Source: Caminibacter pacificus
GTDB lineage: Bacteria; Campylobacterota; Campylobacteria; Campylobacterales; Nautiliaceae
Length of the DNA stretch: 64,000 nucleotides
Reading direction: 5' to 3'
Assembly: GCF_003752135.1 (NCBI RefSeq)
Contig: NZ_RJVK01000001.1
Location: 62,001-126,000, forward strand
Made by a program: the position numbers and the translations under genes. Positions 25,110 through 45,120 of this stretch are shown here, piece by piece (position 1 is the first letter of the stretch; each line of letters opens with the position of its first letter). Under the pieces are notes generated by a model. That model saw nothing but the letters and a program-made list of their open reading frames with translations, was not told where the DNA came from and did no database searches.

Positions 25110-25460
25110 TTAATCGTCCGTTTCGAGCTCCAAACTCATAAGATACATATCTTCCCCGTCTATAATTTTAATATTACCGCTTTGACATTGGGGACATAAA
25201 TATTCGTCTTTGCTTAATTCGCCTTCGAAGCCGCATTTTTCACACCGCACGACTACCGGTTGTATTTTCATTATGAATTCGGCTTCTTCACACATGGTTC
25301 CTTCTTTAAAAGTATCAAAAGCCGTTTTTAACAAATCAGGTTCCACGCCGCTTAAAACACCTATTTTTATTTCGAGCTTGGTTACTTTTTTTGCGTTGTT
25401 TTTTATAGCGTGTTCTTCTGCAAGTTGAAGTAGTGAATCGACTATTGAATATTCATGCAT
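25110..25460 (-). CDS. hypA: HypA, nickel-delivery protein for [NiFe] hydrogenase maturation
   Basis: A 116-aa metallochaperone. N-terminal MHEYS has the His2 nickel ligand, and the zinc site is CEKCGFEGEL ... CPQC. With HypB it delivers nickel to the hydrogenase large subunit. It is divergent from the tetR-hupUV genes. In Campylobacterota HypA can also serve urease, but no urease genes are seen here. Confidence 0.95.
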   Translation of the reverse strand: MHEYSIVDSLLQLAEEHAIKNNAKKVTKLEIKIGVLSGVEPDLLKTAFDTFKEGTMCEEAEFIMKIQPVVVRCEKCGFEGELSKDEYLCPQCQSGNIKIIDGEDMYLMSLELETDD

Positions 25461-25477
25461 TCATAACCTTTTTTTAA

Positions 25478-25492
25478 AATTATATTATAATT
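25478..25492. promoter_or_regulatory. Palindrome in the hypA/tetR divergent promoter region
   Basis: AATTATATTATAATT is a perfect 15-bp inverted repeat centred in the 52-bp gap between hypA and the TetR gene. It overlaps a TATAAT hexamer. TetR-family repressors often bind such sites at their own promoters, but the sequence is pure A/T in an A/T-rich genome, so chance is possible. Confidence 0.35.
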
Positions 25493-25512
25493 AAGGAAAA
25501 AAAAGGATAAAA

Positions 25513-26094
25513 GTGAGTAAAGAGGCTAAAAAAGAACAAATTATGAAAACAGCTCTTGAACTTTTTGCAAAAAAGGGCTTTTATACTACTACGATAGCGG
25601 ATATAGCACGTGAAATGGGAATGAGTGTCGGGAATATGTATAATTACTTTCCATCAAAAGAGTCTTTGGCAAAAGAGCTTTTAATATACACGTCAAAAAA
25701 ATTCGGTGATGAAATCAGAAAAATTAACGATATGGATATCAGTTCTAAAGAAAAAATAAAAAAAATTGTTGAATTGTACTTCAAAATGGCAAAAACCGAA
25801 CCCGAACTTGTAGATTATTTTATGAGAGTTTATCTATCTAATAAAGAGATTTTTAATAACGGATGCGAAGGAATGCTTTGTGTTTCTGCTTTTGTGACCG
25901 AGATTATGATCTTTTTTGAAGAGGGAGTTAGAAAAAAAGAGCTTAAAAACCAAGATTTTTTTGCTGCGTTCGGACTTTTTATGGGATATATCGGCGGACT
26001 TGCGTTTTTGAATAGAGAGGGTATTTTGGGAAAAGATTTGGATGAATATATCGAACCGGTAAGCGAGAATATCTACAATGCACTCAAAGCCTAA
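25513..26094 (+). CDS. TetR-family regulator linked to a sensor-type hydrogenase
   Basis: A 193-aa transcription factor. The N-terminal TetR helix-turn-helix (about residues 8-55) reads QIMKTALELFAKKGFYTTT ... MSVGNMYNYFPSKESL, followed by an all-helical ligand/dimerisation domain containing NGCEGMLC. It starts with GTG behind AAAAAAGGA. Its 3' end overlaps the HupU-like gene by 17 nt, so the two are translationally coupled. Overlap with a cytoplasmic [NiFe] hydrogenase suggests it relays the hydrogen signal, in place of the HoxJ-type kinase used elsewhere. That coupling is inference. Confidence 0.9.
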   Translation: MSKEAKKEQIMKTALELFAKKGFYTTTIADIAREMGMSVGNMYNYFPSKESLAKELLIYTSKKFGDEIRKINDMDISSKEKIKKIVELYFKMAKTEPELVDYFMRVYLSNKEIFNNGCEGMLCVSAFVTEIMIFFEEGVRKKELKNQDFFAAFGLFMGYIGGLAFLNREGILGKDLDEYIEPVSENIYNALKA

Positions 26095-26953
26095 ACTTAT
26101 ATGGATTGATGCCGTAGGATGTAACGGGTGCAGTCATTCTTTTTTTAATTATCCGGAATTTAAGGAAATATTTAAAAAAATCGAGCTACTTTACCATCCT
26201 TTAATCGATACTGAAGAATTTAAAATTCAAGATTGCGATATTTTGGTTATAGAGGGTGCTTTAAAATCCAATTTTACAAGACTCGGTTATGAGCTTCATA
26301 ATTTAATTACTTCACTTTTTTCTTCGGCAAAAAAAGTTATTGCTCTTGGAACGTGTGCGGTTTATGGTGGAATGTTTGGTGAAGGAATTGTTTATAACAA
26401 AGAATCTCACGGTAAATTTTATAAATGTAAAGAAAAAGTAATCAATATTCCCGGATGTCCGGCACATCCTGAGTGGCTTGCATATGTGCTAAATATGATT
26501 ATAGAGAATAAAAAAATAGATTTGGACTCTGAAAATAGACCTCTTGAAACATTTTCTTATACTTCTCATATGGGGTGTATACGTAACGAATATTTCGAGT
26601 GGAAAATAGACGCAGAGAGTTTCGGTACGAAAGAAGGGTGTTTATATTATTTTCAAGGATGTCAAGGACCTTTTACTCATAGTAGTTGTAATAAAATACT
26701 TTGGAACGAAGTAAATTCCAAACCTCGTGCCGGGACTCCGTGTTTCGGTTGTACGGAAAGTACGTTTCCTAAAAAAAATCTTTTTAAAACCGAAACGTTT
26801 ATGGGAATTCCGGCTAATTTACCGCTTGGTGTTAGCAAAAGAGCATATTTAACACTTGCCGGAGTTGCAAAAAGCCTTAAAAATGAACGATTAAATAAAC
26901 CTTTAATAGAATATGGGGATTGTGATGAAAATAACACAAAAAATAGTAAATAA
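26078..26953 (+). CDS. HupU-like [NiFe] hydrogenase small subunit (cytoplasmic, sensory type)
   Basis: A 291-aa small subunit with no Tat signal peptide, unlike HydA, so it acts in the cytoplasm. The proximal cluster ligands are in VGCNGCSH (Cys15, Cys18), GTCAVYGG and NIPGCPAHPEW; medial and distal cluster cysteines follow (HMGCIRNE ... GCLYYFQGCQGP ... CNKILW ... GTPCFGCTESTFP). It falls in the group 2 hydrogenases (HupUV/HoxBC-like). It overlaps the TetR gene by 17 nt and the large-subunit gene by 29 nt. Confidence 0.85.
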   Translation: MHSKPKLIWIDAVGCNGCSHSFFNYPEFKEIFKKIELLYHPLIDTEEFKIQDCDILVIEGALKSNFTRLGYELHNLITSLFSSAKKVIALGTCAVYGGMFGEGIVYNKESHGKFYKCKEKVINIPGCPAHPEWLAYVLNMIIENKKIDLDSENRPLETFSYTSHMGCIRNEYFEWKIDAESFGTKEGCLYYFQGCQGPFTHSSCNKILWNEVNSKPRAGTPCFGCTESTFPKKNLFKTETFMGIPANLPLGVSKRAYLTLAGVAKSLKNERLNKPLIEYGDCDENNTKNSK

Positions 26954-28082
26954 AATTGAAGGCGAAGCCAATCTTAAAATATACGGAGAAGATATTGTAG
27001 ATTTTGTCGAAATAGAGTTTTGGCAATATAGGGGGATTGAAAATTATTTGGTAGGGCGTCATTATATGGATGCACTTGTAATAAATCCTCGTATTTGCGG
27101 TATTTGCGGTCATTCGCATTTATTGGCAAGTGCCAAAGTTATCGAACAAGCGTTTGGTTTGGAAGTTTCTAAAAAAGCAGAAATTTTAAGAGATATAACA
27201 GTCGGTCTTGAGATTATTCAAAATCACCTCAAATGGTTTTACGTAACGCTTTTTCCGACTCGAATTAAAGATAGGAAATTTATGTTTAAAGGTCTTGATA
27301 TCGCAAGAGAAGCTTCTAAAATTATTGCGTTAATAGCAGGTCAGTTTCCACATAATTCGTATATTGTTCCGGGTGGAGTTACTTGTGATTTGACTAATCT
27401 TGAAGTTTTTAAAATAAAGGATATGTTAAAACATTTAAAAGAGAATATAGAAAAAAACGTCGTAGATGAAAACGGAAAAAGTGAAGATTTGGAAACTTTT
27501 TTTGAAGATTTGCCAAAAGAGATAGGAAAAAGCTTAGGTAGATTCTTGGTCCTTGGGAATAATCTTTATTTTGAAACTAACGGAGATATTACAAAAATTG
27601 ATGAAGAAAAAAATTCTTCATTAAGTAAAAATGTTTTTTATAAAAATAGGCTTGTGGAAGTCGGGTCTTTAGCGAGAAATCTTTTTAACGAAAAAGTGCG
27701 CGAAAAATACGAAATATATTCAGATAGTATTTATACGAGAGTTTTTTCTCGTATTTACGAGGTATATTTGGTTATTGATTATTTATTGAAAATAGTTAAT
27801 GATATAGATGTATTGGAGCCTTCTTATATAAAATATAATAAGAAAAGCGGTAAAGGTAAAATCGCAATAGAAGCACCAAGAGGAAGTTTGATTCATGAAA
27901 TTGAAATAGATGATGAAGTTATAAGAAAATATAATATCATAGTACCTACACAGTTTAATCTCTCTTCGTCTTCAAAAGAAAATCCTTCTGCGGCACAAGC
28001 AGCCATGATGGGCGAAAAAACAGAATATATCGACACGATTTTTAAATGTTTCGATATTTGTGCCGTTTGTGTGTCTCATTAG
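26925..28082 (+). CDS. HupV-like [NiFe] hydrogenase large subunit without a cleavable tail
   Basis: A 385-aa large subunit. The Ni-Fe ligand motifs are RICGICGHSH (N-terminal) and DICAVCVSH (C-terminal). The protein ends exactly at the C-terminal histidine, so it has no extension for a maturation protease. That is typical of H2-sensing regulatory hydrogenases and contrasts with HydB in the same window. It is shorter than catalytic large subunits. The start at 26925 was preferred to 26913 because GGGG lies 8 nt upstream and MKITQKIVNKIEGEA matches family N-termini. It is probably an H2 sensor; a low-activity uptake enzyme is the alternative. Confidence 0.85.
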   Translation: MKITQKIVNKIEGEANLKIYGEDIVDFVEIEFWQYRGIENYLVGRHYMDALVINPRICGICGHSHLLASAKVIEQAFGLEVSKKAEILRDITVGLEIIQNHLKWFYVTLFPTRIKDRKFMFKGLDIAREASKIIALIAGQFPHNSYIVPGGVTCDLTNLEVFKIKDMLKHLKENIEKNVVDENGKSEDLETFFEDLPKEIGKSLGRFLVLGNNLYFETNGDITKIDEEKNSSLSKNVFYKNRLVEVGSLARNLFNEKVREKYEIYSDSIYTRVFSRIYEVYLVIDYLLKIVNDIDVLEPSYIKYNKKSGKGKIAIEAPRGSLIHEIEIDDEVIRKYNIIVPTQFNLSSSSKENPSAAQAAMMGEKTEYIDTIFKCFDICAVCVSH

Positions 28083-28122
28083 AAAAAATTATCTAAAATA
28101 TTAAAAAAATATTAATTTTTCC

Positions 28123-28150
28123 TTGCTTTTTGATAATTTTTTATTATAAA
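28123..28150 (+). promoter_or_regulatory. Candidate promoter of the hyd operon
   Basis: TTGCTT (28123-28128) and TATAAA (28145-28150) are separated by 16 nt and lie 36 nt upstream of the hydA start. They fit a housekeeping-type promoter in the 103-nt gap after the HupV-like gene. Confidence 0.45.
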
Positions 28151-28185
28151 ATAATGATGAATGAATTCTAATTCGGAGGAAGACG

Positions 28186-29319
28186 ATGAATGATGCACTT
28201 ATGAAACAAATGAAAGAGAGAATTGAAGCTCTTAAAAAGCTTCCGGGAGTTGGAAGCAAATCGATTAAAGATGTACTTGAAGAGAACGGATTTACAAGAA
28301 GAGATTTTCTAAAATGGTCAGCTGCAATGGCAGCAATGTTAGGACTTCCAGCATCATTTGCTCCGGTAGTGGCAGAAGCTGCTGAGGTAAGTGACAGACT
28401 TCCAGTGGTATGGCTACACTTGGCAGAGTGTACTGGTTGTAGTGAAAGTTTGCTAAGAACGGATGCTCCTACAATTGACGATTTGATTTTTAACTACATC
28501 AATCTTCAATATCATGACACTATTATGGCTGCTGCGGGATGGCAAGCAGAAGAAAACTATGAAGAAGCACTTGAAAAATTTGCAGGAAGATTTATCTTAT
28601 GTGTAGAAGGTGGTGTTCCTACAAAAGACGGTGGAGAATATTTAACAATCGGACCTGAAGCTGAAACAGGGCTTGCAAAACTTAAAAGAACTGCAAGCAA
28701 AGCCGCTGCAATTATTGCTGTTGGTACTTGTAGTAGTTTCGGTGGTATCCAAGCTGCATATCCAAATCCTACAGGAACAGTTGGAATCAATAAAGTATTA
28801 AACAAACCTGTAATTAATGTACCCGGATGTCCTCCAAGTGCAAAAAATATTGTAGGTACAATAGTTTATGTGATTCTTTACGGACAATTACCTGCTGTTG
28901 ATAACTTCAACAGACCTAAATGGGCATACGGACTTAGAATCCATGACCTATGTGAAAGAAGAGGTCATTTCGACGCAGGTGAATTCGTAGAACAATTCGG
29001 TGATGCAGGAGCTGAAAACGGATTCTGTTTATATAAAGTAGGATGTAAAGGTCCATATACTTTCAACAACTGTAGTAGAGAAAGATTCAATCAACATACT
29101 TCATGGCCTGTTCAAGCGGGACACGGATGTATCGGATGTAGTGAGCCTGATTTCTGGGATAGTATGGCACCGTATGAAGAGCCTCTTGCAAATAAAAAAT
29201 TTATGTCGGTAGATGCTGACGCTACTGCTGATAAAGTAGGTATCACAATCTTAACAGTAGCTGGTGTAGCGATTGCAGCACATGCAGCACTAAGCGCAAT
29301 TAAAAATCCTAAGGAGTAA
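28186..29319 (+). CDS. hydA: HydA, small subunit of membrane-bound uptake [NiFe] hydrogenase
   Basis: A 377-aa exported small subunit with a late Tat motif (TRRDFLKWSAAMAAMLG, about residues 37-53) after a long N-terminal region, typical of group 1 hydrogenases of Campylobacterota. Cluster ligands include AECTGCSES, GTCSSFGG, VPGCPPSA, CERRGHF and GHGCIGCSEPDFWD. A C-terminal hydrophobic helix (GITILTVAGVAIAAHAAL) anchors it to the membrane. It passes electrons from H2 oxidation to cytochrome b HydC and menaquinone. AGGAGG-like sequence precedes the ATG, and hydB follows after 3 nt. Confidence 0.96.
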   Translation: MNDALMKQMKERIEALKKLPGVGSKSIKDVLEENGFTRRDFLKWSAAMAAMLGLPASFAPVVAEAAEVSDRLPVVWLHLAECTGCSESLLRTDAPTIDDLIFNYINLQYHDTIMAAAGWQAEENYEEALEKFAGRFILCVEGGVPTKDGGEYLTIGPEAETGLAKLKRTASKAAAIIAVGTCSSFGGIQAAYPNPTGTVGINKVLNKPVINVPGCPPSAKNIVGTIVYVILYGQLPAVDNFNRPKWAYGLRIHDLCERRGHFDAGEFVEQFGDAGAENGFCLYKVGCKGPYTFNNCSRERFNQHTSWPVQAGHGCIGCSEPDFWDSMAPYEEPLANKKFMSVDADATADKVGITILTVAGVAIAAHAALSAIKNPKE

Positions 29320-29322
29320 TAG

Positions 29323-31059
29323 ATGGCTAAAAGAGTAGTAATTGACCCGATTACAAGAATTGAAGGGCACTTAAGAGTAGAGGTTGTTTTGGATGAAAAC
29401 AACGTAATTAAAGACGCGTATTCTTCTGCGACATTATGGAGAGGTATCGAAGTAATTCTAAAAGGAAGAGACCCGAGAGACGCAGGTTTTATGACACAAA
29501 GAATTTGTGGTGTTTGTACTTATTCACATTATAAAGCAGGTATCACTGCTGTTGAGAACGCTCTTGGTATCGAGCCGCCTCTAAATGCGAAACTTACAAG
29601 AACATTACTTGATTTCGCACTATTTTTCCATGACCATATCGTACACTTTTATCAACTTCATGCACTTGACTGGGTTGATATTATCAGTGCGCTTAAAGCG
29701 GACCCTAAAAAAGCGAGTGAAGAAGCTTTCAAATATGTTCCGAAAGGTTATGAACCTATCGCAACAGGTGAAGATCATCTAAGAGAAGTTCAAAAAAGAG
29801 TAGCTAAATTTGCTGAAAAAGGTGACTTAGGACCATTCAAAAATGCATATTGGGGTCACCAAACAATGAGATTTACTCCGGAACAAAACCTAATTGCACT
29901 TTCTCACTACCTAAAAACACTTGAAATGCAAAGAATTGCCGCTCAAATGATGGCAATTTTCGGTGGTAAAAACCCACATCCGCAAAGTTTAACCGTAGGT
30001 GGTGTTACTTGTGTTATGGATTTACAAGACCCTGCAAGACTTGCTGAGTATATGACTAAATTTAAAGAACTTGCAGATTATACAAACAGAGCATACTATG
30101 CCGACATCGTAATGGCAGCTGCTGCTTATGGTAACGAGCCGAGCGTCGTACAAAAAAATAACTTAGGTAACTACCTAACATACAGAACTATGCAAACAAG
30201 TGCTAACTCTTGGTTATTTGACGCTTGCGGTTATATTAAAGATTTCGATTTAAGCAAATTCTATGAAATAGATGAAAGCAAAATCGAAGAAGACGTAACT
30301 CACTCTTGGTACAAAGATACAGGATTCAGACATCCGTATAACGGTGAGACTGTTCCTGAATATACAGGATACGTAGACGGTGAAAGTATTAACGGTGAAG
30401 GAAAACTTGTTCATACAAAAGTTGCGAATCCGGAAGGAAAATATTCTTGGATTAAATCTCCAAGATACAATAAAGAACCTATGGAAGTTGGTCCTCTTGC
30501 ATGTATGGTTGTTAACTATGCAAAAGGAAATGAAAAAGTTAGAAAAGTTGTTGATGAGTTCTTAGCTCAAACTGGTCTTCCTGCTGAAGCGTTATTTACG
30601 ACTCTTGGAAGAACTGCGGCAAGAATGCTTCAAACTAAAACAATTGCTGATTACGGTCTTGAAGCATTTAACAACTTAGTAGAAAACCTAAAAGTAGATA
30701 AAACTACAGTAACACCTTATGTAATTGATAAAAACAAAGAATACAAAGGTAGATTTATCGGTGACGTTCCAAGAGGAATGCTAAGCCATTGGTGTAGAAT
30801 TAAAGACGGTAAAATTGAAAACTGGCAAGCTGTAGTTCCTTCAACTTGGAATGCAGGTCCTGTAGACGGTAACGGTAAAAAAGGTGCTTATGAAGTTAAC
30901 CTAATCGGTATGAAACTTGCAGATCCGACTAAACCTCTTGAAGTTATCAGAAATATTCACTCTTACGACCCATGTATTGCTTGTGCGGTTCACGTAATGG
31001 ACGTAAAAGGTAAAAAACTTGGTGAATTCAAAGTAGACCCACTTTACGGTGCATGCTAA
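29323..31059 (+). CDS. hydB: HydB, large catalytic subunit of uptake [NiFe] hydrogenase
   Basis: A 578-aa subunit carrying the Ni-Fe(CN)2CO centre. The N-terminal motif is RICGVCTYSH and the C-terminal one DPCIACAVH, followed by a 21-residue extension (VMDVKGKKLGEFKVD...) that the protease HydD would remove after maturation. It oxidises H2 in the periplasm, exported together with HydA through Tat. The start lies 3 nt after hydA behind AAGGAG. Confidence 0.97.
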   Translation: MAKRVVIDPITRIEGHLRVEVVLDENNVIKDAYSSATLWRGIEVILKGRDPRDAGFMTQRICGVCTYSHYKAGITAVENALGIEPPLNAKLTRTLLDFALFFHDHIVHFYQLHALDWVDIISALKADPKKASEEAFKYVPKGYEPIATGEDHLREVQKRVAKFAEKGDLGPFKNAYWGHQTMRFTPEQNLIALSHYLKTLEMQRIAAQMMAIFGGKNPHPQSLTVGGVTCVMDLQDPARLAEYMTKFKELADYTNRAYYADIVMAAAAYGNEPSVVQKNNLGNYLTYRTMQTSANSWLFDACGYIKDFDLSKFYEIDESKIEEDVTHSWYKDTGFRHPYNGETVPEYTGYVDGESINGEGKLVHTKVANPEGKYSWIKSPRYNKEPMEVGPLACMVVNYAKGNEKVRKVVDEFLAQTGLPAEALFTTLGRTAARMLQTKTIADYGLEAFNNLVENLKVDKTTVTPYVIDKNKEYKGRFIGDVPRGMLSHWCRIKDGKIENWQAVVPSTWNAGPVDGNGKKGAYEVNLIGMKLADPTKPLEVIRNIHSYDPCIACAVHVMDVKGKKLGEFKVDPLYGAC

Positions 31060-31069
31060 GGAGGCACAA

Positions 31070-31762
31070 ATGAAATTCTTAAAAACAATGGGAGAGTATC
31101 TCGGCGGGATTGAATTCTCTGCCGGATACAGATGGCAACACTGGATAAGAGCTATTTCTATATTTGCTCTTATCGCAACAGGATTTTATATTGCAAATCC
31201 TTTTATTACATACGCAAACGTATCTCCTGAGCCGACAAGATTTTTGCAAGCTCAGATTAGAGAATGGCATATTATTTTCGGTTTTGCGATGATAGGTGCC
31301 GTTTTATATAAAACATTTTTCTTCTTCTTTTTCAGAGAAGGAAAATATGAAAGATTATCCATCCTGGATGCTTTTAACATTAAACTAATGTTAGAGCAAG
31401 TAGGATATTATTTATTAATCAACAAACACCCACACACAAAAGGTGTTTATAATCCGTTACAATTTTGGGCGTATACTATGCTTTACGTATTCTTTTACGG
31501 TATTATTATCACAGGGCTTGCATTATACGCCGAAGTTTATCATAACGGTCTTGGAGGAGCTTTATATCCTTTAGCAAAAGCGGTTGAGAGCTTTTTTGGC
31601 GGTCTTGCGTATGTTAGACTTTGGCATCATATTTTTATGTGGGCTATTATTATCGTAGTATTTATCCACATCTATATGGCCGTATATAACGCAGTATTTG
31701 GCAAAAACGGTGGAATGGACGCAATTTTCTCAGGTATGAAATGGGAAAAAGAAGAACATTAA
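31070..31762 (+). CDS. hydC: HydC, membrane cytochrome b subunit of hydrogenase
   Basis: A 230-aa dihaem cytochrome b with about four transmembrane helices and conserved histidines (YRWQHWIRA, REWHIIFGFA, VRLWHHIFMWAIII, FIHIYMAVYNAVFG). It transfers electrons from HydA to menaquinone. The start at 31070 has AAGGAGG at the right spacing; the frame open from 31049 would start inside hydB without a good ribosome site. Confidence 0.94.
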   Translation: MKFLKTMGEYLGGIEFSAGYRWQHWIRAISIFALIATGFYIANPFITYANVSPEPTRFLQAQIREWHIIFGFAMIGAVLYKTFFFFFFREGKYERLSILDAFNIKLMLEQVGYYLLINKHPHTKGVYNPLQFWAYTMLYVFFYGIIITGLALYAEVYHNGLGGALYPLAKAVESFFGGLAYVRLWHHIFMWAIIIVVFIHIYMAVYNAVFGKNGGMDAIFSGMKWEKEEH

Positions 31763-31866: not shown

Positions 31867-32454
31867 ATGAAAATATTAGTTCTTGGTATAGGGAATATAT
31901 TATTCGGAGACGAAGGAATCGGCGTTCATATGGTTAACTATTTGGATGAAAAATATAATTTTAAAGGTCCTCATCAAGTTGATTTGATAGACGGCGGAAC
32001 ACTTGCGCAAAGATTGATTCCTATAATAGTGGAATACGATAAAGTATTTATATTTGATACCGTTGATGTTGATGAAGGAGAAATAGGCGATGTCTATTTT
32101 TTTGATTTTTTGGAAGTTCCGGAGTGTGTGAGTTGGCAGGGAAGCGCTCATGAAGTGGAAATGCTTCAAACTCTTGAAATGATACATATGATGGGTGATT
32201 TACCGGAAACTAAAATAATCGGTGTAGTTCCTTATGTAATCGGAGAAGATACTACTTTTACAATTACCGAACCGGTAAAAAAAGCCGCAAAACTAATGGA
32301 AAAAATTTTAATAGACGAGCTTAAAAAATTGGGAGTCGAAATAGAAGTGAAAAATCCTGATGTCGATTTACAAGAAATAGCGAGAATTTCTTATAAAAAA
32401 GGCGTACCTGAAGAATCGCTAAGAGGTTATGAAGCTATGAAGGATATGCAATGA
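31867..32454 (+). CDS. hydD: HydD, hydrogenase maturation endopeptidase
   Basis: A 195-aa protease of the HyaD/HupD family that cleaves the C-terminal extension of HydB once nickel is inserted. The N-terminus ILVLGIGNILFGDEGIGVHMV has the nickel-binding glutamate; DLIDGGT and SAHEVEMLQTLEM carry the other metal-binding regions. Its stop overlaps the hydE start by 4 nt (ATGA). The HupV-like subunit in this window lacks a tail and should not be a substrate. Confidence 0.94.
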   Translation: MKILVLGIGNILFGDEGIGVHMVNYLDEKYNFKGPHQVDLIDGGTLAQRLIPIIVEYDKVFIFDTVDVDEGEIGDVYFFDFLEVPECVSWQGSAHEVEMLQTLEMIHMMGDLPETKIIGVVPYVIGEDTTFTITEPVKKAAKLMEKILIDELKKLGVEIEVKNPDVDLQEIARISYKKGVPEESLRGYEAMKDMQ

Positions 32455-34315: not shown

Positions 34316-36499
34316 TTGCGTGTTAAATACAAAATCAACGGAATCGTTCAAGGTGTCGGATTTAGACCTACCGTTTATAAGATAGCCAAGAAACTTAATT
34401 TAAAGGGTTATGTTTTAAACAGTAGTGACGGAGTGATAATTGAAATAGAAGGTGAAAATAAAGATAAGTTTTTAGACGAACTCAAAAAAAACCTTCCGCC
34501 TCTTGCGAGGATTGATTCGATAGAGAGTGAAATATTGGATTTTGTGGGATTTAAGGATTTTGTAATAAAAGAATCTCAAAATACTCAAAAAACCACTTCA
34601 ATCTCTCCTGATATTGCCGTTTGTGATGATTGCTTAAAGGAGATGTACGATAAAAACGACAGAAGATATCTTTATCCTTTCATAAATTGCACTAACTGCG
34701 GTCCGAGATATACTATAATCGAAAATATTCCTTATGACAGAAAAAATACTTCAATGAAAAAATTTAAAATGTGTAAATTTTGCGAAATTGAGTATAACGA
34801 CCCTCTAAACAGAAGATATCACGCTCAGCCTATCAGCTGTTATGACTGCGGTCCGAAACTTGATGTAAAACGTAAAGATGATAGTGGAAAATGGAAAAGT
34901 CTTAATTTTGATGATGAAATTCATAAAATTAAATATATTGCTAAAAAAATAAAAGAAGGGAAAAATGTCGCAATAAAAGGGCTTGGAGGGTTTCATCTCG
35001 TATGTGATGCGACGAATGAAGAGGCTGTTGGAAATCTTAGAGAGAGAAAAAGACGACCGAGTAAGCCTTTTGCCATGATGTTTAAAAATTTGGATATGAT
35101 AAAAGATTATTGCGATATAACGGATAAAGATGTCGCTTTGATAACTTCTAAAGAAAAACCTATCGTACTTGTTAAGAAAAAGAAGGATTTAAAAGGTATA
35201 GCCGATAAAATAGACAGATACGGCGTTTTTTTGCCTTATACACCATTGCATTATCTGCTTTTTGATTTTTTAGATTTTCCGATAGTCGCTACAAGTGCGA
35301 ATATTTCGGACGAGCCGATTATAAGAGATAGTGATGAGCTTATCGAAAAGTTATCGAATGTAATTGATTATATTTTAGATAACGACAGAGATATTGTAAA
35401 TGCGTGTGACGATAGCGTGGTGCAGGCTGTAGGGGATGAATATATTACGATGAGATGTGCTCGGGGATATGCGCCTTTAATGGAGAATGATAAAAGTGAA
35501 AATGAAAAGTCGTATGGCAAACTTAATATTTTAGCCGTCGGTGCCAATCAAAAAAACACTATTTCCCTTGCTTTTAAAGACAAATTTATTCTTTCTCCTC
35601 ATATCGGAGATTTGGGGACTCTTGGAAGTATCGAATATTTCCAAAGGACGATTGAGACTTTTAGAAGGCTTTATGAATTTGAAGAAGATGTAATTATTTG
35701 TGATAAACATCCGTATTACGAATCGACAAAATGGGCTTTGTCCCAAGATAAAAAAATCTTTCAAGTTCAGCACCACTACGCTCATGCTTTGGCTACGATG
35801 TTCGAGCATAATTTAAAAGGAGAATATCTTTGTTTTATATTCGACGGTACCGGATACGGAGATGACGGGACTATTTGGGGTGGTGAAGTATTTATAGCTA
35901 ATAGGAATGATTATAAGAGAATACATCATATCAAACCTTTTAAATTAATAGGGGGTGAGAAAGCCGTTAAAAATCCGGCGAATATGGCTGTTGCTTTGAT
36001 TGATGAGGAGCTTGCTAAAAATTATCCGAATTACAAAATAGCAAAAGCCCTGAATAACGCCTCTTTTCCTCTGACAAGCTCTATGGGTAGAATGTTTGAT
36101 ATGGTTGCGTTTTTGTCTGGGATGATTGAAAAAAACGAATGGGAGGGAATAAGCGGATTATTGATTGAAAAATATTATAATCCGGAAATTAACGAAAAAA
36201 TAGAGCTTAAAATCGAAAAAGAGATAGACTTTAGACCGGTTTTGAATTTCGCGGCTGCAAATAGAGGTGAATTTGAGAGAGTTTCGAGTGTTTTTATAAA
36301 TACTTTGGTCGATTTGATTGAGAAAATCGCAAAAATTTACGACTTACCGGTGATCGTAGGAGGCGGGGTTTTTCAAAATAAAACTCTTCTTACGCTTGTA
36401 AATAAAAGGCTTAATCCTTACTTTAACAAAAAAATACCGATTAATGACGGAGGTGTGAGCGTAGGTCAGGCGGCATGGGGGATTTGGAATTTAAAATAA
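34316..36499 (+). CDS. hypF: HypF, carbamoyltransferase for hydrogenase cyanide ligand synthesis
   Basis: A 727-aa maturation factor that makes the thiocarbamate on HypE from carbamoyl phosphate. An N-terminal acylphosphatase domain (VKYKINGIVQGVGFRPTVYK) is followed by two zinc fingers (CDDCLKEM ... CTNCGPRYT; CKFCEIEY ... CYDCGPKL), a YrdC-like domain and a Kae1-like domain with QVQHHYAHALA and VGGGVFQNKTLL. It begins with TTG at 34316 behind AAAAAAGGC. The stop overlaps the convergent gene at 36491-37093. Confidence 0.95.
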   Translation: MRVKYKINGIVQGVGFRPTVYKIAKKLNLKGYVLNSSDGVIIEIEGENKDKFLDELKKNLPPLARIDSIESEILDFVGFKDFVIKESQNTQKTTSISPDIAVCDDCLKEMYDKNDRRYLYPFINCTNCGPRYTIIENIPYDRKNTSMKKFKMCKFCEIEYNDPLNRRYHAQPISCYDCGPKLDVKRKDDSGKWKSLNFDDEIHKIKYIAKKIKEGKNVAIKGLGGFHLVCDATNEEAVGNLRERKRRPSKPFAMMFKNLDMIKDYCDITDKDVALITSKEKPIVLVKKKKDLKGIADKIDRYGVFLPYTPLHYLLFDFLDFPIVATSANISDEPIIRDSDELIEKLSNVIDYILDNDRDIVNACDDSVVQAVGDEYITMRCARGYAPLMENDKSENEKSYGKLNILAVGANQKNTISLAFKDKFILSPHIGDLGTLGSIEYFQRTIETFRRLYEFEEDVIICDKHPYYESTKWALSQDKKIFQVQHHYAHALATMFEHNLKGEYLCFIFDGTGYGDDGTIWGGEVFIANRNDYKRIHHIKPFKLIGGEKAVKNPANMAVALIDEELAKNYPNYKIAKALNNASFPLTSSMGRMFDMVAFLSGMIEKNEWEGISGLLIEKYYNPEINEKIELKIEKEIDFRPVLNFAAANRGEFERVSSVFINTLVDLIEKIAKIYDLPVIVGGGVFQNKTLLTLVNKRLNPYFNKKIPINDGGVSVGQAAWGIWNLK

Positions 36500-37093
36500 A
36501 TCCTTAACTTCAATTTTGAATCCGTTAAATCTAAATTCCGCTTCTTTTAGGTAATAAAAGAAGTTTTCTTCGCTTACTCCTTTGAATTTTTTAATAAAAT
36601 TTTCGAAATATTCCCAAAATTTGTAAATATTTGCGTGATTTTGGACTTTTATTATTCTACTTTGTCTAAAAAAACTTTTTATTTTTTCTTCATCAAATCC
36701 GGCGTAATTTTTCATTGGGCTTAGCATAATGTTATAAATTTTTCCGCCGTAGTCGATTGTGAGGAAGTTTTGGGCTTTTATAAGTTCTTTTGAAGTTTTT
36801 GGTAGATATAGATATTCTTCGAATTCTTTTATTTCATCTTTTTTCAAAAACTCTTCTTCACATATCGAAGCGATAACTTTTCGTATATTTTTAATCTCTT
36901 TTACCACCGTTGCGTATGAAATGGAATATTTTTGACTGATTTCTTGAGGGGTTAGTTCGTCTAAAAAGCCTTTTAGGATTTCGGCTTTTCTTTCAACTCT
37001 TTTTGGTGAAAATTTTCTTTTACATTTGGCGCATTTATAATATCCGTCTTTTAATTTGTATAAGATGTAATGATTACAGTAAATACAACTCAT
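36491..37093 (-). CDS. Transposase-like zinc-ribbon / HTH protein without a catalytic domain
   Basis: A 200-aa protein whose first 75 residues resemble the DNA-binding part of IS1595/ISL3-type transposases: a zinc ribbon (CIYCNHYILYKLKDGYYKCAKCKRKFSP) followed by a helix-turn-helix (LTPQEISQKYSISYATVVKEIKNI). The remaining 125 residues show no DDE/DEDD motif, and no terminal inverted repeats were seen nearby. It may be a solitary DNA-binding protein derived from a transposase. It overlaps hypF at its 3' end by 9 nt and the membrane-protein gene upstream by 4 nt. Confidence 0.65.
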   Translation of the reverse strand: MSCIYCNHYILYKLKDGYYKCAKCKRKFSPKRVERKAEILKGFLDELTPQEISQKYSISYATVVKEIKNIRKVIASICEEEFLKKDEIKEFEEYLYLPKTSKELIKAQNFLTIDYGGKIYNIMLSPMKNYAGFDEEKIKSFFRQSRIIKVQNHANIYKFWEYFENFIKKFKGVSEENFFYYLKEAEFRFNGFKIEVKDLF

Positions 37094-37605: not shown

Positions 37606-37733
37606 TTTTCCTCCTTTTTAGTTCTATAATTATACAAGAAAATTGAGCTTTTAAGAAAAAATTAAGTTTTTTTGTTATTATTTTATCGACCACTTTATAA
37701 AATCTCTTCTTCTTTTTGAATCAAGGAAAATTC

Positions 37734-38720
37734 ATGAAAAGATTTCTGATATTAGTTTTAATCGTAAGTGCTCTTTTTGCAAAAAAAGATTTTTTAAATA
37801 GAGAAGTTAAGATTCCTAAAAATATTCATAAAATAGTATGTATAGGACCCGGTGCGTTAAGACTTGTGGTTTATTTACAAGCTCAAAACAGAGTAGTAGG
37901 GATTGAAGAGAGGGAATTTAAATATATTTTTGCAAGACCGTATATTTTAGCTCATAAAGAGCTTTTAAAACTTCCGGTAATAGGAATGGGAGGAGTTTAC
38001 CCTAATATTAATATAGAGAAAATAATTTCTTTAAAGCCGGATTTAATTATTGCAGGATATATAACTAAAAAATATGCCGATTATTTACAAAAAAAGAGTG
38101 AAGTTCCCGTATTTGTAGTTCGATACGGACCGATAGGTTCTTTTGACGATAAAAAGTTTTTAAAAGCTATTAAAGTGCTCGGAGAAATTTTAAATAAAAA
38201 AGAAAGAGCAATCGAAATTTCAAAATATATTGAAAAACTGAATTCAAACTTACAAAAAGTGACAACCAATAAGAAAATATATATAGGCGGAGTGGCTTTT
38301 AAAGGTTTGCACGGTCTTACTTCAACTATAAGCGATTTTCCGGTGTTTTTAAAAGTCGGTATCAAAAATGCGGTAACGTCGAAAATAAAAACACCTTTTT
38401 TTATAAATGAAGAGGAGCTGTTTAGAATAAATCCGGATATAATTTTTATCGATGAAAGTGCTTTAGGTTTGATCGATTTTAAAAAGTATCAAATTTTAAA
38501 AGCGTTTAGGGAAAAACAGGTATACGGGCTTTTGCCTTATAATAATTACGCAACTAATATAGATACCGCGTATCTTGACAGTTATTACGTCTTAAGCGTA
38601 GTAGGAAATAAAAAAATAGATATGGAAAAATTAAGCGGTGAAGTTTATAAATTTTTTGTCGGCAAAGACGTATACGAGAGTATGAAAAAATTTTTCGGAG
38701 GATTTAAAAAGATTGATTAA
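37734..38720 (+). CDS. Periplasmic metal-chelate-binding protein of an ABC transporter
   Basis: A 328-aa substrate-binding protein of the iron-siderophore/cobalamin (FepB/BtuF-like) class. A signal peptide (MKRFLILVLIVSALFA) is followed by two lobes; the ligand-side sequences IVCIGPGALRLVVYL and LKPDLIIAGY are visible, and YGLLPYNNYATNIDTAYLDSYYV is a C-terminal family feature. The start at 37734 begins the signal peptide behind AAGGAAAA. The substrate is uncertain. Position between hydrogenase genes and a nickel transporter makes a nickel chelate possible, but iron chelate or cobalamin is equally compatible with the fold. Confidence 0.85.
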   Translation: MKRFLILVLIVSALFAKKDFLNREVKIPKNIHKIVCIGPGALRLVVYLQAQNRVVGIEEREFKYIFARPYILAHKELLKLPVIGMGGVYPNINIEKIISLKPDLIIAGYITKKYADYLQKKSEVPVFVVRYGPIGSFDDKKFLKAIKVLGEILNKKERAIEISKYIEKLNSNLQKVTTNKKIYIGGVAFKGLHGLTSTISDFPVFLKVGIKNAVTSKIKTPFFINEEELFRINPDIIFIDESALGLIDFKKYQILKAFREKQVYGLLPYNNYATNIDTAYLDSYYVLSVVGNKKIDMEKLSGEVYKFFVGKDVYESMKKFFGGFKKID

Positions 38721-39600
38721 ATATTTATCGGCTTTTATATTTTTATTAATAATTTCGTTGTTTTCCGTTTATTACGGTGCGAATGATTTTATTGCTTATA
38801 ATATCAGACTGCCAAGAGTGTTATCGGCGATTGCAGCGGGTGCGGCGCTTGGGATTGCCGGATTTATAATGCAAGTCGTTTTAAAAAACGATTTGGCTTC
38901 TCCTTTTACTTTGGGAATTACGCACGGAGCTCTTTTTGGTGTTAGTTTATCTGTTGTTTTTGGAATCGGAAGCGTTTTTTTGTTTTCTTTTTTAGGTGCT
39001 TTTATCGTAATAGTTTTTATTTTAGCTGTTGCGTTTTTAAGACGACTTTCAAGCCAAAGTATTATTTTAAGCGGAATTGCGATAAGTGCTCTTTTTGGCG
39101 CGGGAAGTATGTTTTTGCAATATTTTGCCGATGAATCTCAACTTGCTAATATTGTAATTTGGAGTTTCGGAGATTTAAGCAAGGGAGATTTTTTTAATAT
39201 TTTTTTGTTATTTTTTATGATTATGCTTTCATTGATATTTTTTTTAATCAATAGTTGGAATTTTAACGCTTTGAGTTTGGAATGTGCTAAGAACGTAGGG
39301 GTTAAAACAGAAACTTTAATTTTTATATCTATGATTATCGTAACTCTTTTAAGCGCTTTAGTAGTCGCAAATTACGGTATTATAGGGTTTGTGGGGCTTG
39401 TGGCTCCTCATATTGTGAGATTTTTTGAAAATAGTTTTAAATCGCTTTTGATATTAAGTGCTCTTTACGGAGCGATTTTGCTTGTGATATCGGATTATAT
39501 CGCCAGAAATATAATATATCCGGTCGAAATACCTGTAGGAATAGTGACGTCGTTTATTGGGGCACCGATGTTTTTATATCTTTTAATGAGGAAAAAATGA
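38713..39600 (+). CDS. FecCD-family ABC transporter permease
   Basis: A 295-aa membrane permease with about eight helices. Family motifs include YNIRLPRVLSAIAAGAALGIAGFIMQ, NDLASPFTLGITHGA and the coupling-helix region FVGLVAPHIVRFF. It starts with TTG at 38713, overlapping the binding-protein gene by 8 nt, and overlaps the ATPase gene by 4 nt. Confidence 0.93.
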   Translation: MIKYLSAFIFLLIISLFSVYYGANDFIAYNIRLPRVLSAIAAGAALGIAGFIMQVVLKNDLASPFTLGITHGALFGVSLSVVFGIGSVFLFSFLGAFIVIVFILAVAFLRRLSSQSIILSGIAISALFGAGSMFLQYFADESQLANIVIWSFGDLSKGDFFNIFLLFFMIMLSLIFFLINSWNFNALSLECAKNVGVKTETLIFISMIIVTLLSALVVANYGIIGFVGLVAPHIVRFFENSFKSLLILSALYGAILLVISDYIARNIIYPVEIPVGIVTSFIGAPMFLYLLMRKK

Positions 39601-40262
39601 GTCTTATTGTTAAAAATTTAAATTTTAAATATAAAGAAAAAGAGATTTTAAAAGATATAAATTTAGAGTTTCAAAAAGGCAAGATGTACGCGATTTTGGG
39701 TCGTAACGGAGCTGGTAAAAGTACTTTTTTAAAATCTATTGCCAAAATTTTAAAACCTAAAGGTGAGATTATTTTTTATGAAAATATTGATAATTTATCC
39801 GTAAAAGAGTTTGCCAAAAAAATTGCTTTTCTTTCACAAATTCAAAATAATTCCTCTCTTAGTGTTTATGAGTTTGTAATGCTCGGAAGAAAACCTCATT
39901 TTAGGTTTTTGCCAAAATTGACGGATAAAAAAACGGTTGAGAGGGTTTTGGAAAAATTAAATTTAAAAGAGAAAAAAAAGATACCGCTCAATTCGTTAAG
40001 CGGAGGAGAGAGACAAAGAGCTGCAATTGCAAGGATATTAGCGCAAAATACGGAGGTTATATTACTTGACGAGCCTACGAATAATTTAGATATAAAATAT
40101 CAAATTGAAATAATTAAATTTTTAAGAGAGATAAAAGAGGATAAAATAATAATTTCGGTTATTCATGACATAAATTTGGCTTTAAAATATTTTGACGAAT
40201 ATATTTTTTTAAAAAATGGTAAAATAATTAATAAAGGTAATCAAGAGATGGTTAATGAATAG
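39597..40262 (+). CDS. ABC transporter ATPase of the metal-chelate system
   Basis: A 221-aa ATPase. Walker A is GRNGAGKST, the signature is LSGGERQRAAIAR, Walker B is VILLDEPTNNLD, and the switch histidine is in VIHDIN. It completes the binding-protein/permease/ATPase operon, overlapping the permease by 4 nt (ATGA). It is a little shorter than the usual 250 aa. Confidence 0.93.
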   Translation: MSLIVKNLNFKYKEKEILKDINLEFQKGKMYAILGRNGAGKSTFLKSIAKILKPKGEIIFYENIDNLSVKEFAKKIAFLSQIQNNSSLSVYEFVMLGRKPHFRFLPKLTDKKTVERVLEKLNLKEKKKIPLNSLSGGERQRAAIARILAQNTEVILLDEPTNNLDIKYQIEIIKFLREIKEDKIIISVIHDINLALKYFDEYIFLKNGKIINKGNQEMVNE

Positions 40263-40348
40263 TTGATATATGAAGTTTATGATATAAAAGTTGAGCTTTG
40301 TGAGTATAAAAATAGAAAATTTATTGTTTTTTAATATTCGTTTAAGGT

Positions 40349-40368
40349 AAATGAGTTATCATTCAATA
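40349..40368. promoter_or_regulatory. Upstream copy of a palindromic motif before nikM
   Basis: AAATGAGTTATCATTCAATA contains the inverted repeat AATGA-GTTA-TCATT and matches the motif at 40511-40530 at 16 of 20 positions. It sits inside an outer inverted pair AAGGT ... ACCTT (40344-40375). It lies about 100 nt upstream of the candidate nik promoter. Confidence 0.45.
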
Positions 40369-40530: not shown

Positions 40531-40549
40531 AAAAAAAAAAGGAGTGCGT

Positions 40550-41197
40550 ATGCATATTGCGGACGGATATCTTTCCCCTGCTACGGTTGCGGTGAGTTAT
40601 GCTGTTGCCGTGCCTTTATGGGTGTACGGATTTAAAAAACTAAAAGAAAAACTTAACGAAGAGACTCTTCCTATGATTGGAGCTCTTGCGGCACTTAGTT
40701 TCGTAATTATGATGTTTAACGTTCCCGTACCCGGAGGTACGAGCGGACATGCGGTGGGAGCTGCGTTAATTGCTATACTTTTCGGACCTTGGGTTGGGTT
40801 TATTAGTGTGAGTTTGGTACTTTTGATTCAAGCTATTGTTTTTGGAGACGGAGGAATCAGCGCTTGGGCTGTTAATTCTTTGGCTATGGGCTTTATCGGT
40901 AGTTTTGTGGGATATTACGTATTTAAGTTATTAAAAGACAAAACGAAATTCGCTCCGTTTTTTGCCGGATATATTTCGATTGTAACGGCTGCGCTTTTTG
41001 TTGGTATCATTCTTGGAATTCAGCCGATATTCTGGACTCATAACGGACATCCGTTATATTTTCCGTTTTCACTTAAAATCTCGGTACCAGCCATGGTTGG
41101 AGAACACGCTTTGTTTTTCGGAATCGTAGAGGGTATTTTTACACAGCTTGTATATAATTTCCTCACTAAAAAAGAAAACGAAAAGGTTGCGGCATGA
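40550..41197 (+). CDS. nikM: NikM, substrate-capture component of ECF nickel transporter
   Basis: A 215-aa CbiM/NikM-family membrane protein. The start at 40550 was chosen over the in-frame GTG at 40544 because it gives the family N-terminus MHIADGYLSP, in which His2 takes part in metal binding, and because AGGAG is then ideally spaced. The conserved PGGTSGHAVGAAL region and several membrane helices are visible. It captures Ni2+ for the hydrogenases; cobalt specificity is less likely given the hyp context. nikN overlaps by 4 nt. Confidence 0.9.
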   Translation: MHIADGYLSPATVAVSYAVAVPLWVYGFKKLKEKLNEETLPMIGALAALSFVIMMFNVPVPGGTSGHAVGAALIAILFGPWVGFISVSLVLLIQAIVFGDGGISAWAVNSLAMGFIGSFVGYYVFKLLKDKTKFAPFFAGYISIVTAALFVGIILGIQPIFWTHNGHPLYFPFSLKISVPAMVGEHALFFGIVEGIFTQLVYNFLTKKENEKVAA

Positions 41198-42900: not shown

Positions 42901-43671
42901 ATGTGTGATTCTTGCGGATGTGCAACTGGGCACAAACATGATCATAACCATGGACATAAAGAAGAGGTGATTAACGAAGATATTAAAAATAATCCCCAAC
43001 TATCTCACAAAGTGACCGTAATTGAAAAAATTCTCTCAAAAAATAACGCAATGGCCGATGAAATAAGAAAAACATTTGATGAGCATAAAATCACTTGTTT
43101 TAATATGATGAGCTCTCCGGGAAGCGGAAAAACGACGACTCTTGAAAATTTAGCGGATAAGCTTCCTTATAAATTTGCGGTAATCGAAGGAGACCTTGAG
43201 ACTTCTCGCGATGCCGAGAGAATTAGAAATAAAGGAATTTGGTCTTTTCAACTTCAAACGGGTAGGGCGTGTCATCTTGACGCCGGAATGGTAAAACACG
43301 CAATTCCTCATTTTCCTTTTGACGAAGTTGAAGTGGCTTTTATCGAAAACGTAGGAAATTTGGTATGTCCGGCAAGCTATGATGTTGGAGCTCATTATAA
43401 TATGGTGTTTGTTAGCGTGCCTGAGGGTGATGACAAGATAGAAAAATATCCGGTAATGTTTAGAAAAGCGGATATCGTAGTTATCACAAAAGCCGATATG
43501 CTTGAATTTTTCGATTTTGACGTAAAAAGAGCAAAAGAAGCGGCAAATAAACTAAAGCCCGGAGTTCCTGTAGTGCTTTTAAACAACAAAACCGGTGAGG
43601 GGCTTGATGAAATAATCGAATGGATTAAGAGTAAAAGAGAAGAGCATTTAAAGTCTCTTGAAAACAGATAA
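42901..43671 (+). CDS. hypB: HypB, nickel-inserting GTPase
   Basis: A 256-aa GTPase for nickel delivery to hydrogenase. The N-terminus has the high-affinity metal motif CDSCGCATG followed by a histidine cluster (HKHDHNHGHKEE) for nickel storage. P-loop SSPGSGKTT, then ENVGNLVCPASYD and TKADML of the GTPase domain. TATAAT-like sequence at about 42863 and AAGGAG precede it. It heads hypB-hypC-hypD. Confidence 0.96.
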   Translation: MCDSCGCATGHKHDHNHGHKEEVINEDIKNNPQLSHKVTVIEKILSKNNAMADEIRKTFDEHKITCFNMMSSPGSGKTTTLENLADKLPYKFAVIEGDLETSRDAERIRNKGIWSFQLQTGRACHLDAGMVKHAIPHFPFDEVEVAFIENVGNLVCPASYDVGAHYNMVFVSVPEGDDKIEKYPVMFRKADIVVITKADMLEFFDFDVKRAKEAANKLKPGVPVVLLNNKTGEGLDEIIEWIKSKREEHLKSLENR

Positions 43672-43696
43672 TTTTTATAAATATTAAGGAGCAATA

Positions 43697-44008
43697 ATGT
43701 GTTTGGCAATTCCGAGTAAAGTTTTGAAAATAACGGAAGATAATATGGCCGAAGTGGATACTTTGGGAGTTAAAAGGGTTGTTAGTCTCGATTTGATGCC
43801 CGAACCTGTAAAAGAGGGAGATTACGTACTTATTCACGTCGGATACGCTATGGGTAAAATCGATGAAAAAGAAGCACTTGAAAGTATAGAAATTTATAAG
43901 CAGCTTGCCGAAGCCGCAATGCAGGAAGAATACGAAATCGACCCTGAAAAGTTAGTGACGGAAGACGGTCCGCTTTTATACAAGCCTCCTACGGAGGATG
44001 AAAAATGA
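43697..44008 (+). CDS. hypC: HypC, hydrogenase maturation chaperone
   Basis: A 103-aa chaperone with the essential N-terminal Cys2 (MCLAIPSKVLKI) and the family region GDYVLIHVGYAMGKID. With HypD it carries the Fe(CN)2CO precursor and presents it to the large subunit. It overlaps hypD by 4 nt (ATGA). It is slightly longer than average (75-95 aa). Confidence 0.96.
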   Translation: MCLAIPSKVLKITEDNMAEVDTLGVKRVVSLDLMPEPVKEGDYVLIHVGYAMGKIDEKEALESIEIYKQLAEAAMQEEYEIDPEKLVTEDGPLLYKPPTEDEK

Positions 44009-45120
44009 GTTTAACTCTTAAAGATTTGTATTTTAAATTCAGAGACCCCGAAGCCATAAAAACTTTAAATAAACTCATCCATAAAGAAGCCGCAAAATTA
44101 AAAGAGCCTATGAGAGTTATGGAAATTTGCGGCGGTCATACCCATACTATTATGAAATACGGCTTAAAACAACTGATGCCCGAAAATATTACTTTTATTC
44201 ACGGTCCAGGGTGTCCCGTGTGCGTAATGCCAAAAGAGAGAATCGACCATGCAATAGAACTTGCCAAACAACCGGATGTTATTTTAGCGACTCTCGGGGA
44301 TATGATAAGAGTACCGGGTAGCAAATCAAGCCTTGCTAAAGTCAGAGCCGAGGGTGCCGATGTTAGACCTCTTCATTCGACTTTTGACGTATTGCAAATC
44401 GCAAAAGAAAACCCTGATAAAAAAGTGGTATTTTTTGCTATAGGATTTGAGACGACGACTCCTATGACGGCCGCACTCATGGATAGAGCGTTTAAAGAAG
44501 GAATCAAAAATATCTATTATCATATCAATCACGTTTTGGTACCGCCTCCGATGAGGGCTATTATGGATAGTGGAGAAGCTAAAATCAACGCATTTATAGG
44601 ACCGAGCCATGTTAGCGTTATTATCGGTGCTAAGAGCTATCAGTTTTTGACCGATGATTATAAAACACCTGTAGTGGTTGCGGGGTTTGAGCCCGTGGAT
44701 GTAATGGAGAGTATTTTAATGCTTTTAAAGCAAAAAAACGAAGGCAGATGTGAAGTTGAGATTCAATATAAAAGAGCGACTACTTGGGAAGGTAACGTAG
44801 TGGCTCAAAAAATGATAGATAAATATATGGAAGTAAGAGATACGTTTAGATGGAGAGGTCTTGGGGATATTCCAAAAAGCGCTTTGAAATTAAGAGACGA
44901 ATTCGCTGAATTCGATGCCGAAAAAATTTGGGCCGATGTTTTACCGAACGAACCGATTGACGACCATAAAATGTGTATCTGTGGTGATATTTTAAGAGGT
45001 CTTGCCACTCCTAAAGATTGTAAAGTATTCGGCACGGCATGTACGCCTGAAAATCCTCTCGGAAGCTGTATGGTTAGTGATGAGGGTGCTTGTAACGCGT
45101 ATTATAGGTATGATAGGTAA
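44005..45120 (+). CDS. hypD: HypD, Fe-S protein assembling the Fe(CN)2CO group
   Basis: A 371-aa protein with EICGGHTHTI, HGPGCPVCV, GFETTTPMTA and the C-terminal [4Fe-4S] cysteines (CICGDILRG ... CKVFGTACTPENPLGSCMVSDEGAC). It is complete, ending NAYYRYDR. The last 57 nt (45064-45120) reappear in degraded form at 45811-45866, beyond the toxin-antitoxin pair. In the usual hypBCDE order hypE would follow directly, but here it is 2.76 kb away. Confidence 0.96.
   Translation: MSLTLKDLYFKFRDPEAIKTLNKLIHKEAAKLKEPMRVMEICGGHTHTIMKYGLKQLMPENITFIHGPGCPVCVMPKERIDHAIELAKQPDVILATLGDMIRVPGSKSSLAKVRAEGADVRPLHSTFDVLQIAKENPDKKVVFFAIGFETTTPMTAALMDRAFKEGIKNIYYHINHVLVPPPMRAIMDSGEAKINAFIGPSHVSVIIGAKSYQFLTDDYKTPVVVAGFEPVDVMESILMLLKQKNEGRCEVEIQYKRATTWEGNVVAQKMIDKYMEVRDTFRWRGLGDIPKSALKLRDEFAEFDAEKIWADVLPNEPIDDHKMCICGDILRGLATPKDCKVFGTACTPENPLGSCMVSDEGACNAYYRYDR

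Follow-up and report, generated by a model that had tools for sequence, protein, structure and literature searches.

Organization of the tetR-hupUV locus

The window analyzed here, which is the whole 64,000-nucleotide stretch taken from the 1.86-Mb genome of Caminibacter pacificus, carries three intact, overlapping genes, tetR, hupU, and hupV, on the forward strand within positions 25513 to 28082, just upstream of the uptake hydrogenase genes hydABC (Table 1). The tetR and hupU genes overlap by 17 nt, and hupU and hupV overlap by 26 nt, or by 41 nt if the alternative hupV ATG at 26913 is used; hydABC starts 104 bp downstream of hupV. A preliminary description of this DNA had reported an overlapping tetR-hupU-hupV set upstream of the hyd operon, and both the ORF coordinates and the Pfam matches agree with it.

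Table 1. Features of the tetR-hupUV locus and associated genes (window positions)
Feature	Position	Strand	Basis
hypA, nickel metallochaperone, divergent from tetR	25110..25460	-	Pfam HypA 1.6e-33; adjoins tetR across Nautiliaceae
tetR, TetR-family regulator, GTG start	25513..26094	+	Pfam TetR_N 5.7e-16 (58.5 bits)
C118 codon (25864-25866) and C123 codon (25879-25881), C-x4-C in ligand domain	25864..25881	+	
hupU, [NiFe] hydrogenase small subunit	26078..26953	+	Pfam Oxidored_q6 and NiFe_hyd_SSU_C; conserved C-terminal tail
hupV, [NiFe] hydrogenase large subunit	26928..28082	+	Pfam NiFeSe_Hases 1.3e-39
-10-like TAAAAT, 5 bp 5' of putative operator	28147..28152	+	Sequence
Putative TetR operator at hydA, TGAATGAATTCTAATTCG	28158..28175	+	13/16 defined positions; degenerate
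hydA, uptake hydrogenase small subunit, putative target	28186..29319	+	TIGR00391 1e-156; TAT_signal
hydB, uptake hydrogenase large subunit	29323..31059	+	Pfam NiFeSe_Hases 1e-204
hydC, cytochrome b subunit by position	31049..31762	+	ORF and synteny
hydD, maturation endopeptidase by position	31867..32454	+	ORF and synteny
Second putative operator, TAAATGAGTTATCATTCA, 178 bp 5' of nikM	40348..40365	+	2 mismatches
cbiM/nikM, nickel/cobalt ECF transporter	40544..41197	+	Pfam CbiM 4e-60
hypB-, hypC-, and hypD-like genes, run headed by cbiM/nikM	42901-45120		ORFs; hyp names from sequence by eye

Conservation of the tetR-hupUV unit

Of 100 genomes surveyed from the order, 43 have the TetR orthologue (threshold, >230 bits; 58 to 91% identity to the C. 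pacificus protein), and exactly these 43 also have HupU (43/43 co-occurrence), with a partial HupU match in G058 and a hupU gene cut by the contig end in G038 counted as present. The latter genome was considered as a case of TetR without HupU and was rejected, as its contig ends inside hupU. The TetR orthologue was never found without HupU in these 100 genomes, about 30 of which have HydA but neither of the two proteins. In the order set, 39 of 40 loci have tetR immediately 5' of hupU in the same orientation, separated by no more than 15 nt. A second, named set shows this order at 76 of its 79 loci; it includes Nautiliaceae, Nitratiruptor, Sulfurimonas, Sulfuricurvum, Sulfurovum, and Hydrogenimonas records and shares some contigs with the first. 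These counts show that the arrangement is not due to chance, and it is ancient. Its conservation across Campylobacterota, proposed in the preliminary description as a check, is thus borne out by both sets of loci and by the 43 genomes, and the opposing case raised there, HupUV relatives without tetR, is nearly absent: at one locus (L205, G022) the tetR gene sits on a different contig, and the one remaining case is L214. The hydABC genes are usually downstream of tetR-hupUV, with exceptions (e.g., L065, L079, and L085), and are divergent in L078. Since hydABC is not always adjacent, the tight unit is tetR-hupUV rather than tetR-hyd.

At one locus (L074), in this one assembly, a stop breaks the tetR frame (G042:C37:102566-103138) with hupUV and the hydA operator still in place, which may be decay or a sequencing error. 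Campbell 2009 (PMC2628731) had noted a resemblance of the sensing and uptake hydrogenase operons to those of other vent Epsilonproteobacteria.

Features of the HupUV hydrogenase

No Tat signal was detected in HupU, as the preliminary description had it; HydA has one (Pfam TAT_signal). The C terminus of HupV is exactly DICAVCVSH, so that the large subunit does stop at the last nickel-ligand motif, and CxxCxx(H/Q/K) is likewise the end of HupV in each of the 38 relatives whose gene is complete. The HupV NiFe ligands C57, C60, C378, and C381 are invariant among 39 sequences; in the same alignment of relatives, the HupU ligands of the medial and distal Fe-S clusters do not vary either. In the proximal CxxC motif of HupU (residue 18), the second Cys is replaced by Asn (CxxN) in about 80% of the Campylobacterota relatives. 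C. pacificus and Nautiliaceae HupU keep CxxC, and CxxN is also present in the aligned Huc sequence. Gas-channel residues were set aside as evidence: the Ile of CGIC does not vary, but the residue at position 101 does, and the mapping of that position is unsafe.

The best PDB sequence match of both HupU and HupV is Huc of M. smegmatis, and the best 80 of 280 HupUV relatives in GTDB genomes are all from Campylobacterota. In two papers, the Campylobacterota homologues are labelled hydrogenase group 2d (PMC12286921), and the enzyme is compared with Aquifex aeolicus hydrogenase III (PMC2628731). Given the Huc match and these placements, the earlier designation "HupUV-type" is a loose name and a functional guess rather than a family assignment, and the group 2d label itself comes from the literature on homologues.

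The intact active-site ligands and the mostly intact Fe-S ligands would also suit an ordinary catalytic enzyme. Whether the cytoplasmic group 2 hydrogenase of Campylobacterota is a sensor or a ferredoxin-linked enzyme has been called a matter of speculation (PMC4584964; PMC2628731). A ferredoxin-linked role, as for Aquifex hydrogenase III, was proposed for Nautilia profundicola (PMC2628731) and, as one of several possible roles, for Sulfurimonas denitrificans (PMC4584964). Such an enzyme would feed or drain ferredoxin for the reductive TCA cycle, TetR would sense some other small molecule, and the operon would merely be shared. We regard this as rather unlikely: the operon has no conserved gene for ferredoxin or for another electron partner, and catalysis would not need 43/43 co-occurrence with a TetR that targets a different hydrogenase. 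In addition, no soluble uptake activity was seen in S. denitrificans (PMC4584964), and in Sulfurospirillum multivorans hupL is barely transcribed (PMC5357620). In S. multivorans hydB is constitutive (PMC5357620), which, with the low transcription of hupL, is also a caution for the reading of the locus as an H2 switch.

A candidate operator at hydA

In the upstream regions read, a palindrome, TGAATGANTANTCATTCA, lies just upstream of the hydA ribosome binding site in most TetR-positive genomes. Sites were scored by their match to the 16 defined positions of TGAATGANTANTCATTCA, with a threshold of at least 13/16. The hydA operator reached this threshold in 30 of 41 TetR-positive genomes versus 2 of 33 TetR-negative genomes (Fisher p 3e-9, with the kinship of the genomes uncorrected), a comparison that is partly post hoc, since the consensus was chosen after the TetR-positive hydA promoters had been viewed. 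The contrast between TetR-positive and TetR-negative genomes is also seen within families, at 3/3 versus 0/2 in f4, 4/4 versus 0/1 in f6, and 2/3 versus 0/4 in f9. The two TetR-negative genomes with a site (G065 and G091) both belong to f20 and lack TetR-HupUV, perhaps through recent loss of tetR-hupUV. In the named set, 39 of 53 hydA upstream regions reach 13/16.

In 14 of 30 hydA promoters, versus 7% of control windows, the operator directly adjoins a -10 element of the form TAnAAT, which is the position expected of a repressor. Relative to the -10 element and the ribosome binding site, the C. pacificus site at 28158 to 28175 is placed as it is in distant relatives. The hydA sites of families f1 and f10 are weak (11 to 13/16), that of C. 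pacificus included, and six Nautiliaceae relatives match at 11 to 12/16, with several of their sites between -35- and -10-like elements. The attribution of this putative operator to TetR is by co-occurrence and has strong support from comparative genomics.

Two regions had been named in the preliminary description as possible TetR binding regions. The one upstream of hydA (28083 to 28185) holds the palindrome, and the one upstream of tetR (25461 to 25512) holds none of this type. Autoregulation of tetR via the operator was considered and rejected, since inspection by eye of about 40 regions upstream of tetR revealed no such palindrome. A tetR promoter without the operator is a point in favor of a catalytic, ferredoxin-linked enzyme. 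The published operator of B. subtilis FadR, TGAATGAMTANTCATTCA, is the same as the palindrome found here.

Hydrogenase and nickel genes preceded by the palindrome

An exact search of the 100 genomes with TGAATGANNATTCAYT returned 36 sites, 33 of them in TetR-positive genomes. These 33 sites precede hydA (21 sites), NicO (6), CbiM/NikM (2, in G022 and G071), and hypB (1), with one further site at a TetR paralogue's own promoter and two unassigned; hydA, nickel transporter, or hypB genes thus follow 30 of the 33. The NicO calls combine sub-cut-off Pfam scores, the HAFGPDH motif, and strong mutual similarity, and the one in G003 was made by eye in a shifted frame. The nickel and group 4 targets played no part in choosing the consensus.

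The best site in the C. pacificus genome, with one mismatch (C1:192312), lies 15 bp upstream of a group 4 hydrogenase operon, and the site at C1:20395 precedes a second group 4 hydrogenase operon. Counterparts of the first site are present in G062, G048, G033, and G088, which makes 5/5 among the Nautiliaceae genomes with that operon in which a site was found. For the second operon, sites are present in G088 and G033, the one in G033 being inside the predicted first gene. Within the 64-kb window, the only matches with at most three mismatches are the hydA site and the one at 40348 to 40365 upstream of cbiM/nikM; against 0.79 expected in 64 kb, two matches are not significant by count, and it is their positions that matter. 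Raw counts of near matches in Nautiliaceae likewise show little enrichment over a reversed-pattern control, and only the positions are informative. TetR very probably controls a hydrogenase-nickel regulon through the palindrome site.

The only published expression data found to bear on the proposed switch, and in its favor, are from Arcobacter butzleri: in H2-grown cells both hynAB sets are upregulated 2.3- to 6.2-fold and the group 2d huaSL genes are downregulated (PMC12286921), in a comparison that also switched the electron donor and pathway (acetate versus H2). One gene cluster of A. butzleri contains hupSL together with two membrane hydrogenases (PMC2147049), and G070 has a layout of the same kind, with operator sites at both hydA genes. 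In the part of the literature covered, no paper describing a TetR partner or a hydrogenase-nickel regulon was found.

Operator-like sites also occur near other genes. In three Nautiliaceae (L267 site 1788, equal to G000:C1:206287; L288; and L294), they lie between a FAD/NAD oxidoreductase gene and a 411-aa proA-like gene, and at L166, in an f9 genome, a site precedes another pyridine nucleotide oxidoreductase gene, which together with the Nautiliaceae sites may indicate an extra regulon member. A two-mismatch site (L269 site 1628, G000:C3:117127) is located some 100 bp 5' of the complex I gene nuoA. In three Nautiliaceae (L274, L295, and L296), a conserved site-like palindrome lies near genes for a small secreted protein and a porin-like protein. 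Within the window, the region between the hyp genes and nikM (37716 to 40262) encodes a binding protein, a FecCD permease, and an ATPase, possibly a nickel ABC importer. Next to hypF (36491 to 37093, reverse strand), a zinc-ribbon-like protein of 200 aa is encoded; by eye it resembles proteins from L169, L171, L172, and L175, whose genes are beside or divergent to operator-bearing nickel transport or hypB genes in other genomes.

The TetR protein

In the alignment of relatives, the mean identity to the C. pacificus protein is 66% for TetR, 53% for HupU, and 43% for HupV. Among the hupUV-linked orthologues, conservation is strong even in the ligand domain, the part that usually varies in TetR proteins. 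C118 and C123 are identical in all 39 hupUV-linked TetR orthologues, and the TetR paralogues that do not adjoin hupUV (37 to 46% identical) lack this pair; a paralogue downstream of hydE in G023 has a differently spaced Cys pair. The AF2 model of TetR (pLDDT 89.7) has a FadR-like fold, with the TetR family HTH and an all-helical ligand domain. In a Foldseek search, B. subtilis FadR (3whc/3whb) was among the best structural matches (TM 0.83), and with the NCBIfam FadR profile TetR scores 47.9 against a cut-off of 200 bits. The invariant Cys pair would make a redox link between the hydrogenase and TetR plausible at most.

The same Cys pair, together with the nickel importers and hypB in the regulon, would also suit a TetR that senses nickel or a thiol or oxidant, with C118 and C123 as ligands or as a disulfide and HupUV as one more member of the nickel-enzyme set. 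We hold this to be improbable. Nickel control would normally move nickel import and the synthesis of nickel enzymes in opposite directions, yet both share the site type; TetR tracks HupUV and not HydABC; and no conserved His is present in the alignment of hupUV-linked TetR orthologues.

TetR paralogues are also encoded directly downstream of hydE or divergently from a group 4 hydrogenase operon (L281 5391-6588, L283 4071-4652, and L176 3643-4224). One of this group carries the palindrome at its own promoter, and they may represent a hydrogenase-associated TetR subfamily beyond HupUV.

A proposed kinase-free switch

No kinase is conserved at the tetR-hupUV locus among the 120 loci examined, as expected from the kinase-free locus first described. 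Conserved neighboring kinases were looked for, and the candidates were rejected as genus-limited two-component genes, mostly in f10. A PAS kinase elsewhere in the genome had been named as a finding that would speak against the idea; the C. pacificus genome encodes 13 histidine kinases, none of them with a Pfam-detectable PAS domain. These 13 kinases leave room for HupUV to signal via an unlinked histidine kinase and a response regulator, as in HoxBC-HoxJ-HoxA, with TetR acting independently. Given the absence of a conserved kinase and of PAS domains, and a TetR-linked palindrome that accounts for the targeting of hyd, this route is extremely improbable.

In the switch that we propose, TetR would be a repressor that binds the palindrome, which would cover the start region of the hyd promoter, and that also acts at the promoters of other hydrogenase and nickel operons. 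HupUV would be a [NiFe] hydrogenase of the cytoplasm that activates H2, and the operon has no further partner gene for it. When H2 is present, HupUV would alter the DNA binding of TetR, most likely lifting repression, and the C118 and C123 thiols are a possible route for this effect. We infer the binding of TetR to the site, the repression, the H2 response, and the direct coupling of HupUV to TetR. It is fairly probable that tetR-hupU-hupV is a kinase-free, hydrogen-responsive switch of the hydrogenase-nickel regulon, and H2, acting through HupUV, is to a similar degree the likely signal. The Cys pair as the route of the signal is a tentative suggestion, with a chance appreciably below even. 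The fullest form of the proposal, to which we give a chance only a little below even, is that electrons or a conformational signal from H2 go straight from HupUV to DNA-bound TetR via the Cys pair, in a two-part kinase-free sensor that controls hydrogenases, nickel import, and maturation across Campylobacterota. The preliminary description had suggested that TetR reads the state of the hydrogenase directly; this is partly supported, its regulatory half being much strengthened and its biochemical half, from HupUV to TetR, being still conjectural.

The conserved partner regulator, the candidate operator, and the regulon make the role of the group 2 hydrogenase directly testable. If H2 is sensed through TetR, the unit would be a hydrogen sensor that needs neither a kinase nor phosphorylation, and it could serve as a compact part for H2 reporters.

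Comparison with known systems

B. subtilis FadR (YsiA) responds to long-chain acyl-CoA and controls a fatty acid degradation regulon. TetR shares its fold (TM 0.83) but has about 20% identity to it, an invariant C-x4-C in the ligand domain, and hydrogenase and nickel genes as its putative targets. Huc (group 2a) of M. smegmatis is an energy-yielding enzyme. Its likeness to most Campylobacterota HupU proteins is the CxxN in place of the proximal CxxC, which C. pacificus HupU keeps.

The group 2d HuaSL enzymes and A. aeolicus hydrogenase III have the same cytoplasmic two-subunit form, and the Campylobacterota homologues are so labelled. However, they were proposed to be catalytic and ferredoxin linked, and the accessible text of the two reports mentions neither a tetR linkage nor a hydrogenase-nickel regulon (PMC12286921, PMC2628731). 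The HoxBC/HupUV sensors (group 2b, with the kinase HoxJ/HupT and the regulator HoxA/HupR; PMC10073562) are similar in being cytoplasmic, in lacking a Tat signal and a C-terminal extension of the large subunit, and in having their genes near the uptake operon, and their presumed job, H2-dependent control of hydrogenase genes, is alike. They differ in that the partner there is a PAS kinase, whereas here it is a TetR-family protein of the same operon, and the enzyme here is placed in group 2d by the literature (PMC12286921), with Huc as its closest solved relative. The output would differ as well, being a repressor at a palindrome near +1 here and an activating response regulator there.
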